A stretch of 64,000 nucleotides of DNA. It comes from Caballeronia pedi (GTDB lineage Bacteria > Pseudomonadota > Gammaproteobacteria > Burkholderiales > Burkholderiaceae). The stretch spans positions 62,001 to 126,000 of the forward strand of contig NZ_FCOE02000008.1 of NCBI RefSeq assembly GCF_001544915.2, given 5' to 3'. The notes under the pieces are model-generated. The model made no database searches. It worked only from the letters and a program-made list of their open reading frames with translations, and had not been told where the DNA came from. Shown piece after piece: positions 30,944 through 38,453 of the stretch (the stretch's first letter is position 1; the number at the start of each line of letters is the position of its first letter). A program made the position numbers and the translations under genes.

Positions 30944-31393
30944 ATGTTCAGTCGATCAGAACTCACGCGCGAGATAGCGCGAATCATGCTGCGTCTCGAA
31001 CAGCGCAAGCTGCCGAAGCATCCGGACTGGATCACGCAGGCCATCATGCGCAGGCATCCGTTGCCGAAGGTGACGAAGCACGCGGACTTTTACGAGTACA
31101 ACACGCGCGCCAACGTGCGCGAAGCAGTCGCCGCTCAAGTGCGCAGAGCGAAGCTAAACACAGAGGCCGTGCCTGATCGGCAAGGTGTGCTCGAAGGCTT
31201 CGAGCGGCTTCAGAAAGAGTACTTGGTCGAGCGTGACGGAACAGAGGTTGCGATGCCGATCGAGAGCATGAGTGACGAGCAGCTTATGGAGCAGTTCTAC
31301 AAGCTACAGGCGATGGAGAAAGGACTGTTCCAGCACGGACAAGAAATCCTGCGGTATATCGACCTGCGCCGTAGCGCGAGAACCGGGACATGA
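30944..31393 (+). CDS. Hypothetical early phage protein
   Basis: A 149-residue, helical and basic protein (start MFSRSELTREIARIMLRLEQRKLPKH; PDWITQAIMRRHPLPKVTKHADFYEY). It overlaps the initiator gene by four bases (ATGA). No family recognised. Confidence 0.6.
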   Translation: MFSRSELTREIARIMLRLEQRKLPKHPDWITQAIMRRHPLPKVTKHADFYEYNTRANVREAVAAQVRRAKLNTEAVPDRQGVLEGFERLQKEYLVERDGTEVAMPIESMSDEQLMEQFYKLQAMEKGLFQHGQEILRYIDLRRSARTGT

Positions 31394-32340
31394 ACGACAT
31401 GGCTCGCATTCGCACCGTAAAGCCGAAGCTGTTCACGCATGAGGCGTTGTTCGATGCCGAGCACGAGTGCGGCCTGCCCTTGCGACTCGCGTTCATCGGC
31501 CTGTTCACCGAGGCCGATCGCGAAGGCCGCTTTCAGTGGCGACCGCGCACGCTCAAGGCCGCGATTCTGCCCTTCGATGACCTCGACTTTTCACGCGTGC
31601 TCGACGCGTTAGCCACGCGTGGCTTTCTCGTGAAGTACGCGTCGCGCAGTGGGGAAGTACTCGGCGCGATTCCGACTTTTCGCCATCATCAGGCGATCAA
31701 CAACAAGGAACAGGCTTCGGAACTCGATGCACCGAGCGCCGAGGATATCGCGACTTGGCGAACCCTCGCGGGACAAGGGAATGCGGACGCGTTGCGAACG
31801 CGTGAATCACGCGTGACCCACGCGTCACCGGGCAGGCTTAGGAATTCGCGAGGGGAAGGGAAGGGAAAGGAAGGGAGTAAACCTAAAACCTTAAAACCTA
31901 AAACCGAGGGTTCTAGCTCGTCTCGTCAGCAAACCTCGCGCGCACGCACGAGGCACGGTGACGATGATCGACGAGACGAGACGACCCTCGCCTTGAGAAA
32001 AATTGCGGAGGAAGCCGGGCTTCGGCTGACGCCGAAAACGGCGAACGGCATTGAGGCCGCAGCAGCCGAAGGTGTCACGTCGGCGAGCTTCGCGCATGCG
32101 ATCGCAGCTGCGGTCGAGCACGGCGCGCACGACCGAGCCGCCTATGCGCTCAAGACCGTGCGGGCATGGCAAGCCGAAGGCAGTGAGCCGCCGCTCAACG
32201 GCAGACATGCAGGCCCGCGCTTCGATGAAAAGAACGAGGACCGGAAGCGCTGGATGGCCGAGATCGGCGCACACGCAGATGACGACATGCCGACGATCGA
32301 CGTCGAAGCAACGGAGGTCCTGCATGGCCCGCGTTCCTGA
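31390..32340 (+). CDS. Phage replication initiator, lambda O-like
   Basis: A 316-residue protein. The N-terminal domain MARIRTVKPKLFTHEALFDAE...RLAFIGLFTEADREGRFQWRPRTLKAAILP is the winged-helix start of a large family of phage replication proteins. A long Ser/Lys/Arg-rich linker (about residues 145-200) precedes a C-terminal helical domain, which in O-like proteins binds the loader. A second start at 31399 (MARIRT) is likely. The DNA contains an apparent origin (31,593-31,905) inside the gene, as in lambda O. The P-like gene overlaps the end by 17 bp. Confidence 0.8.
   Translation: MNDMARIRTVKPKLFTHEALFDAEHECGLPLRLAFIGLFTEADREGRFQWRPRTLKAAILPFDDLDFSRVLDALATRGFLVKYASRSGEVLGAIPTFRHHQAINNKEQASELDAPSAEDIATWRTLAGQGNADALRTRESRVTHASPGRLRNSRGEGKGKEGSKPKTLKPKTEGSSSSRQQTSRARTRHGDDDRRDETTLALRKIAEEAGLRLTPKTANGIEAAAAEGVTSASFAHAIAAAVEHGAHDRAAYALKTVRAWQAEGSEPPLNGRHAGPRFDEKNEDRKRWMAEIGAHADDDMPTIDVEATEVLHGPRS
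31593..31905. other. Candidate replication origin with 11-bp-phased iterons
   Basis: Two arrays of the hexamer ACGCGT occur inside the initiator gene. Array A has copies at 31593, 31604, 31615 and 31637 (the unit at 31626 is degenerate); array B has copies at 31787, 31798, 31809 and 31820. Spacing is exactly 11 bp within arrays (22 bp over the degenerate unit). The hexamer falls in all three reading frames, so it is not a protein repeat. Next come a 28-base purine tract (31850-31877) and an A/T-rich stretch with ACCTAAAA-type repeats (31878-31905). The arrangement resembles lambda ori. Confidence 0.75.
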
Positions 32341-32917
32341 CCACGTTATCGACAGCCTGTTCCGACGCATGGCTGCGATGTATGGCAGTGCCTATGTCGA
32401 CAAGTGGCGTGCTGTGCCGATCAAGGACATGCGCGAGCAGTGGGCGCAAGGCCTTGCGTTCGTAAGTTCCGATGACCTGCGCTACGGCATCGCGCGGCTG
32501 TTCCACCATCCCGGCCCGCCTGACCTGCCGACGTTCATCGGCCTGTGCCGTCATGAGGCTGTACCGCTCGAACATCGACCGGCCCTGACCAACGGGCGTT
32601 CGCCGATGACGCCTGAAGGCCTCGCAGAACTCGCACGCATCAAAGGCATCGTCAATGCGAATCCTGCAACGCTGCCGAACGCGCCTCGGGCCGATGGGAT
32701 TCAATGGGCGTACAAGCTGCTCGACAAGGCGACGCGCGGCCAAGCGAACGCGCATCAGGTCGCCTTCGCCGAGGACGCGATCAGCCGGTGGAAGGCCTCG
32801 CATCATGTCGCGGCGGATGCCGACAACGATGCACCGCTCGAACTGCCGAAGCGCATCGCGAGTCCGCATATCTACGGCGATCGTGAGCCGGGCAGCGATG
32901 ACGAGGTGCAGCCATGA
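32324..32917 (+). CDS. Replication protein, lambda P-like helicase loader candidate
   Basis: A 197-residue protein with GGAGG ahead of the ATG at 32324. The N-terminal helical region VIDSLFRRMAAMYGSAYVDKWRAVP and LRYGIARLFHHPGPPDLPTFIGLCRH is typical of phage P-like replication proteins. No Walker motif, as expected for the P type rather than DnaC. It overlaps the initiator gene by 17 bp. It probably recruits host DnaB to the origin in the initiator gene; this is inferred from position and general similarity. Confidence 0.7.
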   Translation: MARVPDHVIDSLFRRMAAMYGSAYVDKWRAVPIKDMREQWAQGLAFVSSDDLRYGIARLFHHPGPPDLPTFIGLCRHEAVPLEHRPALTNGRSPMTPEGLAELARIKGIVNANPATLPNAPRADGIQWAYKLLDKATRGQANAHQVAFAEDAISRWKASHHVAADADNDAPLELPKRIASPHIYGDREPGSDDEVQP

Positions 32918-33150
32918 ACGTGACTCTCGGCGTGTTCATCGAACACCTTCGTAACCCGAACTATTCGATCGACGAGGCCGAACGTGCCCGCATCGCGACG
33001 TTGGTCGAAGTGCTCGACTTCGAGTACATGCGAGCGATGGAAGCATTGCACCGCATTGCGCTGATGACCGGCTATCGCGTGCCCGATGGTGACCTCGTGC
33101 TCGGCCTGCCGCAGCATGTCGCCTTCATGATCGCAGGGGAAAATCAATGA
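32914..33150 (+). CDS. Hypothetical phage protein
   Basis: A 78-residue protein, MNVTLGVFIEHLRNPNYSIDEAERARIATLVEVLDFEYM, of helical character. ATGA overlaps on both sides place it in the replication operon. No function recognised. Confidence 0.6.
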   Translation: MNVTLGVFIEHLRNPNYSIDEAERARIATLVEVLDFEYMRAMEALHRIALMTGYRVPDGDLVLGLPQHVAFMIAGENQ

Positions 33151-33476
33151 TTCGCTACGAACAGGACCGCCGCACACGCGCAGAGCAAAACCTGCTGTCG
33201 GCACTGCTGCGCAAGTCCGAGAACATTCGCCATTGCATGAACGTGCGATGCGATGACTTTTCACACGATCAGCACGGCATGATCTTCGCCTCGATCCGGT
33301 CACTGATCGACGACGGTGAAGCGGTCAACGTTGAGAGCGTGCATGCACATATGCAGACATGGCATCGGGTCAACGTCTCGACGTATGCCTACCTGCTGAC
33401 GCTGGCCGAGCTACGTATCGCGACCTGCTACACAGGCCTTTACGCGGCTGCAATGCTCAACGGGAGGAAGTCATGA
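33147..33476 (+). CDS. Free-standing DnaB N-terminal-like domain protein
   Basis: A 109-residue protein that resembles only the N-terminal domain of the replicative helicase DnaB: AEQNLLSALLRKSENIRHCMNVRCDDFSHDQHGMIFASIRSLIDDGEAVNVESVHAHM, then YLLTLAE. There is no RecA-like ATPase part. In DnaB this domain forms the collar that contacts primase and loader. Placed next to the initiator and loader genes, it may modulate host DnaB or replace collar contacts. The similarity is by motif only; the gene is complete with overlaps at both ends. Confidence 0.75.
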   Translation: MIRYEQDRRTRAEQNLLSALLRKSENIRHCMNVRCDDFSHDQHGMIFASIRSLIDDGEAVNVESVHAHMQTWHRVNVSTYAYLLTLAELRIATCYTGLYAAAMLNGRKS

Positions 33477-37119: not shown

Positions 37120-37650
37120 ATGGACCAGCCTGTTAAAAATGCGCCGCAGTGGCCCGCGGCCAAGGTGCAACTGTGGGACATCGAGAAGCTGATTCCCTAC
37201 GCACGCAACGCGAAACAGCACTCTGCAACGCAGGTCGCGCAGCTTGCCGCGAGCATGCGCGAGTGGGGCTTCACGATGCCGGTTCTCGCCGCCGAGGATG
37301 GCACGATCATCGCCGGTCACGGTCGGGTCATGGCAGCGAGACTGCTCGAATGGGAGCGCTTGCCGGTCATGATCGCGAAGGGTTGGACCGACGCGCAACG
37401 CCGCGCGTATGTCCTGGCCGACAACCGCCTGGCCGAGTCGCCGTGGGACGATGAACTGCTGGCGGTCGAACTCGACGCGCTCGCGTCCGATAAGTTCGAC
37501 ATGTCGCTGCTCGGCTTCACGAACGACGAGATGGACGCCCTTGCAAACGCAGGCGAATTCGGCCCCGGCAGCGCAGGCGATCAAGGCGACCTCTCGACGT
37601 TACAGCCGATCATCTGCCCGCATTGCGGCGGTGAGGTCCCCCGCAAATGA
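37120..37650 (+). CDS. ParB-like nuclease-domain protein with C-terminal zinc knuckle
   Basis: A 176-residue protein. Residues 15-110 are a ParB/sulfiredoxin-like domain with LIPYARNAKQHS, VAQLAASMREWGFTMPVL, the GHGRVMAARLL motif and YVLADNRLAESPWDDELL. In many phages this domain is the front half of a DNA methyltransferase; here no methyltransferase follows and the chain ends in ICPHCGGEVPRK, a zinc knuckle. The Mom-like gene overlaps its stop by four bases, so the two probably act together in DNA modification. The role is inferred. Confidence 0.8.
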   Translation: MDQPVKNAPQWPAAKVQLWDIEKLIPYARNAKQHSATQVAQLAASMREWGFTMPVLAAEDGTIIAGHGRVMAARLLEWERLPVMIAKGWTDAQRRAYVLADNRLAESPWDDELLAVELDALASDKFDMSLLGFTNDEMDALANAGEFGPGSAGDQGDLSTLQPIICPHCGGEVPRK

Positions 37651-38453
37651 GCACGCCCGCTCGCCTGTCCGAAGCGACCGGAGCGAAGCCCGCTCTGCGC
37701 ATCGATTGGGCGACCGACGAGGCTGTCGCCTATGCCTGCGGTCACTGGCACTACTCCCGATCGGTCCCGGTCAGTACGAACGTCAAGATCGGCGCATGGG
37801 AAGGCGATCGCTTTATCGGCATCGTGCTGTTCAGTCGCGGCGCGAACCGGCATATCGGCAACCCCTACGGCCTCACGCAAACCGAGTGCTGCGAACTCTC
37901 GCGCGTCGCGCTGCGTGACCATCAGACGCCTGTGTCGCGCATCGTCATGCTGGCCGTCAAGTTCCTGCGCAAGGCCTCACCCGGCCTGCGCCTGATCGTC
38001 AGCTATGCCGACACCGTACAAGGCCATGTCGGCGGCATCTATCAGGCCATGAACTGGATTTATACCGGCGTCGGCAAGACGACACGCGTCGTCGTGCATG
38101 GCGAGGTCCTGCACGGTAAGACCGCGAGCAGCCGCTACGGCAAGCGAGGGTTCAACCTCAAGTGGCTAATCGCGAACGTGGATCCGAAGGCGACCCGCAT
38201 CGACGGCGGCGACAAGCATCGCTACCTGCTGCCGCTCGATGACGACATGCGTGCTCAGGTCGCACCGCTTGCCAAGCCTTACCCGAAGTCTGATTCAACC
38301 CCGCGCGAGAAGCGGGCGATGACCGGTTCCACCGGTACAGCGGCGGTTCAACACCGACCCTCGCGCTCCATCCTTAAGACGGTGACTCATGCCCGGAATC
38401 CGAAAAGGGCGCGGCACAGTGCCAAGAAAGCCAACTCACCTGCGGGTGATTGA
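37647..38453 (+). CDS. Mom-like DNA-modification protein
   Basis: A 268-residue protein of the Mom family (GNAT-related fold; phage Mu Mom converts adenine to a methylcarbamoyl derivative that resists restriction). Matching segments are ACGHWHYSRSVPVSTNVKIGAWEGDRFIGIVLFSRGANRHIGNPYGL, CCELSRVALRDHQTPVSRIV and LIVSYADTVQGHVGGIYQAMNWIYTG. The last 80 residues form a basic tail. Its 3' end overlaps terS by 65 bp. It would modify phage DNA just before packaging. Activity is unproven. Confidence 0.82.
   Translation: MSTPARLSEATGAKPALRIDWATDEAVAYACGHWHYSRSVPVSTNVKIGAWEGDRFIGIVLFSRGANRHIGNPYGLTQTECCELSRVALRDHQTPVSRIVMLAVKFLRKASPGLRLIVSYADTVQGHVGGIYQAMNWIYTGVGKTTRVVVHGEVLHGKTASSRYGKRGFNLKWLIANVDPKATRIDGGDKHRYLLPLDDDMRAQVAPLAKPYPKSDSTPREKRAMTGSTGTAAVQHRPSRSILKTVTHARNPKRARHSAKKANSPAGD

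Follow-up and report, generated by a model that had tools for sequence, protein, structure and literature searches.

That an initiator gene can carry its own origin is already known. In pSK41, four Rep boxes lie within rep and the origin encodes the linker of the protein (PMC5703833). RepA_N iterons are mostly semi-palindromic direct repeats, the inverted parts of which converge on a poly-A tract (PMC7145576). The lambda O gene contains its own iterons mid-gene and occurs with the replication gene P (PMC7466680). For the iteron plasmids RK2, F, P1 and R6K, iterons of 17–22 bp are described, and in the case of RK2 TrfA separation by half a helical turn abolished cooperative binding (PMC4980987).

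Here we analyzed a 64 000-nt stretch of a Caballeronia pedi contig (the window), in which a gene matching phage replication initiators contains two arrays of the hexamer ACGCGT. The literature covered by our search did not reveal an earlier description of an origin with ACGCGT units, an 11-bp step or a purine tract for this initiator family; most subscription journals lie outside that coverage, so absence is not proven. The genome paper of Vibrio phage VvAW1, a carrier of a related initiator, does not settle the replication strategy of the phage, and its accessible text does not contain the word 'iteron' (PMC3558961); the accessible text of PMC9011153 contains neither 'iteron' nor 'origin of replication'.

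Two phased arrays in an initiator gene

The preliminary description of this DNA had claimed eight ACGCGT copies within 240 bp, in two arrays with 11-bp spacing and one degenerate unit. Indeed, eight exact copies are present in the gene, spanning 233 bp from first to last (Table 1), and the degenerate unit of array 1 reads TCTCGT. The copies occur in all three reading frames, as had been stated (2, 1, 0, 1 in array 1 and 1, 0, 2, 1 in array 2), and are followed by the 28-nt purine run that had been noted, with TAAACCTAAAACCTTAAAACCTAAAACC directly after it. At the A/T-richer stretch of 28 nt behind the tract, the 60-nt GC minimum is 0.43.

Table 1. Coordinates of the initiator gene, its sequence elements and the following genes (numbered from the first letter of the window)
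Feature	Position	Strand	Remarks
Initiator gene	31390..32340	+	phrog_16167, AlphaFold2 model, structure matches, alignment
Array 1	31593..31642		ACGCGT at 31593, 31604, 31615 and 31637; 11-bp step; slot 31626 degenerate
Array 2	31787..31825		ACGCGT at 31787, 31798, 31809 and 31820; 11-bp step; in interdomain linker
Purine tract	31850..31877	+	GGGAA-type, 28 nt; near-fixed codons among homologues
A/T-richer ACCTAAAA-type stretch, 28 nt	31878..31905	+	not a family feature
Gene after initiator	32324..32917	+	weakly like P-type helicase loaders: phrog_109 (E 6.2e-6); phrog_1524, unknown function (E 3.4e-6)
109-aa protein	33147..33476	+	only the DnaB N-terminal domain matched, PF00772 (E 1.8e-12)

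The phased arrays in the initiator gene are not a product of chance. In 20 000 synonymous-codon shuffles of the gene we obtained a mean of 0.78 and a maximum of 6 ACGCGT sites (8 in the wt gene), and a mean of 0.025 and a maximum of 3 pairs at a distance of 11 bp (5 in the wt gene). ACGCGT is not enriched across the whole window (37 observed vs 44.9 expected). The three-unit 11-bp pattern occurs nowhere else in the 9.14-Mb genome to which the window belongs, and in only 1 of 397 other genomes of the same phylum, there as a tandem repeat outside initiator homologues.

Counted from the ATG at 31390 the initiator comprises 316 aa; the ATG at 31399 is the likelier start, because homologues begin near MxRIRT. 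The protein matches the PHROGs profiles phrog_16167 ('replication initiation protein', E 2.5e-42) and phrog_1408 (E 8e-21). Pfam includes a lambda O family, but hmmscan against Pfam-A returned no family for the initiator up to E 0.1, neither a lambda O-type nor a RepA_N domain. The AlphaFold2 model displays a winged-helix order in the N-terminal part, a low-confidence linker and a helical C-terminal domain, which may be DnaD-like; RepA_N plasmid initiators are marked by DnaD-like domains in both halves, the N-terminal one being a winged helix. Among the structure matches, Fur and other repressors with a winged-helix fold reach scores as high as those of initiators. In this model, array 1 coincides with codons of the predicted winged helix, namely those of the helix in the recognition position and of the strand that follows; the preliminary description is to be corrected accordingly, one of the two arrays being placed in codons of the predicted DNA-binding domain.

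RecT-like and RecE-like genes are located upstream of the initiator on the opposite strand, and a RusA-like resolvase gene and terminase genes downstream. As the window belongs to a bacterial contig, we read the region as a prophage. The 109-aa PF00772 protein lacks the helicase part and may serve in helicase loading or as a decoy. Further downstream, a Mom-like DNA modification protein is encoded (37647–38450, + strand; phrog_1384, E 1.2e-50), adjoined by a ParB-like or methyltransferase-like gene (37120–37650).

Conservation of the 11-bp step at the DNA level

With the window protein alone as query we found an identical sequence (L003) and two further relatives (L004, L005) in viral contigs, as well as an initiator of Caballeronia megalochromosomata (L002) in the genome collection; another close relative (genome G352, 64% identity) belongs to the same genus. 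Phased ACGCGT is present in L002, L004 and L005. For a broader, protein-led search, viral contigs were scanned with two peptide patterns, neither overlapping the arrays, taken from an alignment of 16 initiators (14 of which had first been found through the DNA pattern). The scan yielded at least 600 stretches, at least 565 of them encoding relatives, of which the best 80, hence the closer ones, were retained. All of these 80 homologues, one being identical to the window (L205), contain at least one ACGCGT pair with a distance of exactly 11 bp, 79 of them two or more, so that no homologue with a conserved protein and without phased copies is found in this part of the clade. Alignment of homologues, proposed earlier as a check, thus reveals that the spacing is kept within the clade while synonymous sites elsewhere vary.

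After removal of near-copies, 63 non-redundant genes remained. They contain 363 ACGCGT sites and 199 pairs at 11 bp, compared with means of 47 sites and 1.5 pairs (maximum 5) when synonymous codons were shuffled 200 times; 105 pairs are spaced by 22 bp, 27 by 33 bp, 22 by 44 bp, one by 12 bp and none by 10 bp. Both arrays are present in 58 of the 63 genes. In array 1, slot 3 is exact in none of the 63 and slot 4 in 20, and therefore the missing unit of the window is a family trait. The longest purine run has a median length of 37 nt, compared with a shuffle mean of 17.5 nt, and starts 4–69 nt behind the final phased unit in 58 genes and 184–196 nt behind it in the other five. The lambda-like order suggested in the preliminary description (iterons, then purine-rich and A/T-rich DNA) holds for the iterons and the purine tract. 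The A/T-rich part is not a family feature, as no such region next to the arrays is kept across 60 aligned genes, and the comparison is therefore only half right; among 12 homologues compared, L206 and L208 have an A/T-richer stretch behind the tract, and L207 partly has one.

Codon use in the 63 genes (with the residues of array 2 and the tract assigned from window coordinates) demonstrates that the ACGCGT units, as had been claimed, and also the purine tract are under selection at the DNA level: codons are near-fixed in the units and drift at other conserved residues. Conserved residues of array 1 use S TCA in 57 of 57 cases, R CGC in 95%, V GTG in 89%, D GAC in 100%, A GCG in 100%, T ACG in 100% and R CGT in 98%. 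The corresponding values are T ACG 97%, R CGT 98%, R CGC 100%, V GTG 72% and A GCG 88% for array 2, and E GAA 98%, G GGG 95%, K AAG 95%, G GGA 94%, E GAA 98% and G GGG 92% for the tract. In other words, conserved residues wholly or nearly inside units or tract use one codon in 88–100% of the genes, all but V147 (72%). Elsewhere, the top codon of conserved R, L, P and G residues reaches 24–51%, and that of two-codon residues 51–75%, except for F72 just before array 1 (TTT, 93%); L76, L79 and G83, which lie mostly in the array 1 spacers, have top codons of 43–57%. The frame of array 2 differs between phages, with all three being used (25, 22 and 11 of 58), and array 1 lies in one frame in 54 of 58.

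The same association emerges when the protein is ignored and viral contigs are searched for three ACGCGT at a fixed step. An 11-bp step gave at least 120 stretches; in 103 of 120 (69 of 80 among the matches listed) the array falls within an initiator homologue. A 10-bp step gave 15, ten of them within a homologue. For a 12-bp step this was the case in none of 24 stretches and for the frame-preserving 9-bp step in none of three, a small sample. Only steps near one helical turn go with this initiator family.

The step is also kept in a densely sampled sister clade of enterobacterial relatives (phages Louie, HK639 and kin), while the core differs, a pattern that would be expected of sites read by the initiator. 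From a protein-led scan we selected the best 80 of 509 relatives, thinned them to 40 and, after partial filtering of TGATTC-tract words, compared the number of exact 6-mer repeats with that in ten synonymously shuffled sets; since the genes are interrelated, none of the following counts are independent. At lag 11 there are 155 repeat pairs (16.2 expected), at lag 22 there are 53 (9.2 expected), and the neighboring lags 10, 12 and 13 give 8, 22 and 0 (3.5, 12.7 and 5.7 expected). The commonest lag-11 words are TGCAAG, AAGCAC and GTGCAA, and ACGCGT occurs only 10 times in all 40 genes. Lag 21 exceeds lag 11 (254 vs 46.2 expected), owing to a CTGATTCCCTTAAC-type tract that stands where the purine tract would be, and lags 7, 25, 30, 33, 37, 42 and 44 are raised as well. 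Tracts of CTGATTCC replace the purine tract in L203 (2510–3397), L197 (2501–3364) and L292 (1501–2370) as well as in the 40 sister genes; they repeat at 7, 14 and 21 bp, the last of which corresponds to two helical turns.

A tree was built from 97 initiator N-terminal domains, of which 53 belong to genes with phased ACGCGT; some domains had been chosen by DNA pattern. On this tree, the label of phased ACGCGT requires 3 changes, compared with 32.1 when shuffled. One group of 35 rows, 34 of them labelled, includes the window and mostly has two arrays. A second group of 19 rows has the linker array and no first array, with steps of 10 or 11 bp and some stray sites; its purine tract measures 23–44 nt. 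Of ten named phages that were fetched, three contain an 11-bp pair, i.e. the Vibrio phages VvAW1 (48% G/C at the locus) and 1.176.O (42% G/C) and one Podoviridae isolate; it is absent from the other seven. Phased ACGCGT is found in plasmid records of Endozoicomonas, Bradyrhizobium and Shinella (all three examined; five found), and is absent from the distant homologues of Vibrio phage 24E30.2 and Marinomonas phage P12026. A family-wide genome search detected an initiator homologue in 33 of 398 genomes; of 30 loci from this search, three contain the 11-bp pair (one being the window's own) and in the other 27, more distant homologues, it was not found, nor was a clear array found in many single distant homologue genes.

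Two individual initiators are of separate interest. In VvAW1 (L195:2501–3394), the C-terminal part, about residues 170–284, matches proteins of other phages that lack the N-terminal part, two of them annotated as DUF1376; it is perhaps a swappable domain. In Podoviridae ct7QV12 (L201:2501–3300), three GAAGCA units at 11 bp precede a GGGAA tract, a possible core switch; the place of this protein in the tree is unsure (long branch).

A candidate in-gene origin and the alternatives

The initiator gene very probably holds an in-gene prophage origin, which the gene's own predicted winged-helix protein would bind on one helix face, because many related phages preserve the arrays at the level of DNA. 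The origin-like iterons proposed in the preliminary description thus find support within the clade, both from the 80 best homologues and from the near-fixed unit codons. From the anatomy of the locus and from the analogues pSK41 Rep, lambda O and RK2 TrfA we infer the following sequence of events. The predicted N-terminal winged helix would bind ACGCGT palindromes at 11-bp steps (10 or 11 bp in some relatives). Owing to this spacing, bound protomers or dimers would all sit on the same side of the helix, and their assembly across both arrays would be cooperative. The resulting complex might strain or open the DNA at or beside the purine tract, whereupon the C-terminal domain and the P-like loader would bring in the host DnaB helicase, possibly with the 109-aa protein as a partner in loading.

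One alternative would be that the arrays form an operator, at which the initiator or a phage repressor blocks transcription of the gene and limits copy number, with replication starting elsewhere. The repressor-like scores of the winged helix would fit such a role, and a loop could form between the two arrays of the gene. Yet the arrays lie about 200–435 bp into the gene, they are followed by a near-fixed purine tract, for which an operator has no use, and the gene is named an initiator and succeeded by helicase-related genes; we regard this explanation as improbable. Slightly less credible again is the binding of another phage-borne protein (ParB-like, host nucleoid or modification enzyme) for partition or packaging. 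The window does encode ParB-like and Mom-like proteins, and some relatives reside on plasmid records, but in relatives recorded from Alpha- and Gammaproteobacteria and from Caballeronia the arrays sit inside the initiator gene, the window's own genome has them at no other place, and a sister initiator clade shows a different core. That the repeats arise incidentally from repetition in the protein or from the codon preferences of a GC-rich gene is next to impossible. Although the array 1 peptide SRVLDALxTRGF is indeed conserved, a step of 11 bp is not divisible by 3 and the copies occupy three frames, synonymous shuffles yield few sites, codons are fixed in the units and not in the spacers, and arrays also occur in loci of 42–52% G/C.

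Returning to the in-gene origin, we tentatively propose, with a little less than even confidence, that it works as a ruler of one helical turn: hexamers recur every 10–11 bp, the core varies between clades while the step is kept, and the purine tract takes the place of an A/T-rich opener. If this is true, in the two-array clade the recognition helix would be encoded by the sites it binds, and origin and DNA-reading surface could not mutate independently. The locus can also serve as a natural experiment in helical phasing and in the coevolution of a binding site with the protein region it encodes. To our knowledge, the origins of many temperate phages are unmapped. As three ACGCGT at an 11-bp step fall within such an initiator in 103 of 120 cases (from at least 120 stretches), the putative origin of phages with this initiator could be read from sequence and placed to within a few hundred bp.

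Relation to described origins

On the basis of its anatomy, our best reading is that the initiator works like lambda O or pSK41 Rep, with Pfam placing it in neither family. What appears to be new is the unusually short unit, the strict one-turn step, the array in DNA-binding-domain codons and the purine tract instead of a conserved A/T-rich element. The iteron plasmids RK2, F, P1 and R6K use other initiator proteins. They resemble the proposed scheme in that cooperative binding depends on helical spacing (PMC4980987). In the satellite PLE of V. cholerae, the origin of RepA is non-coding and its repeats are different. The RepA_N initiators of the pSK41/pTZ2162 type have their origin inside rep, as proposed here, whereas the present locus has ACGCGT units at an 11-bp step, in two arrays, one of them in DNA-binding-domain codons, followed by a purine tract. 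Lambda iterons measure roughly 18–19 bp. The likeness to lambda O consists in candidate sites inside the initiator gene and a P-like gene nearby. In lambda the iterons are four in number and longer, and unwinding depends critically on an A/T-rich tract (PMC7466680), whereas here we find hexamers at an 11-bp step and no A/T-rich tract kept in the family.
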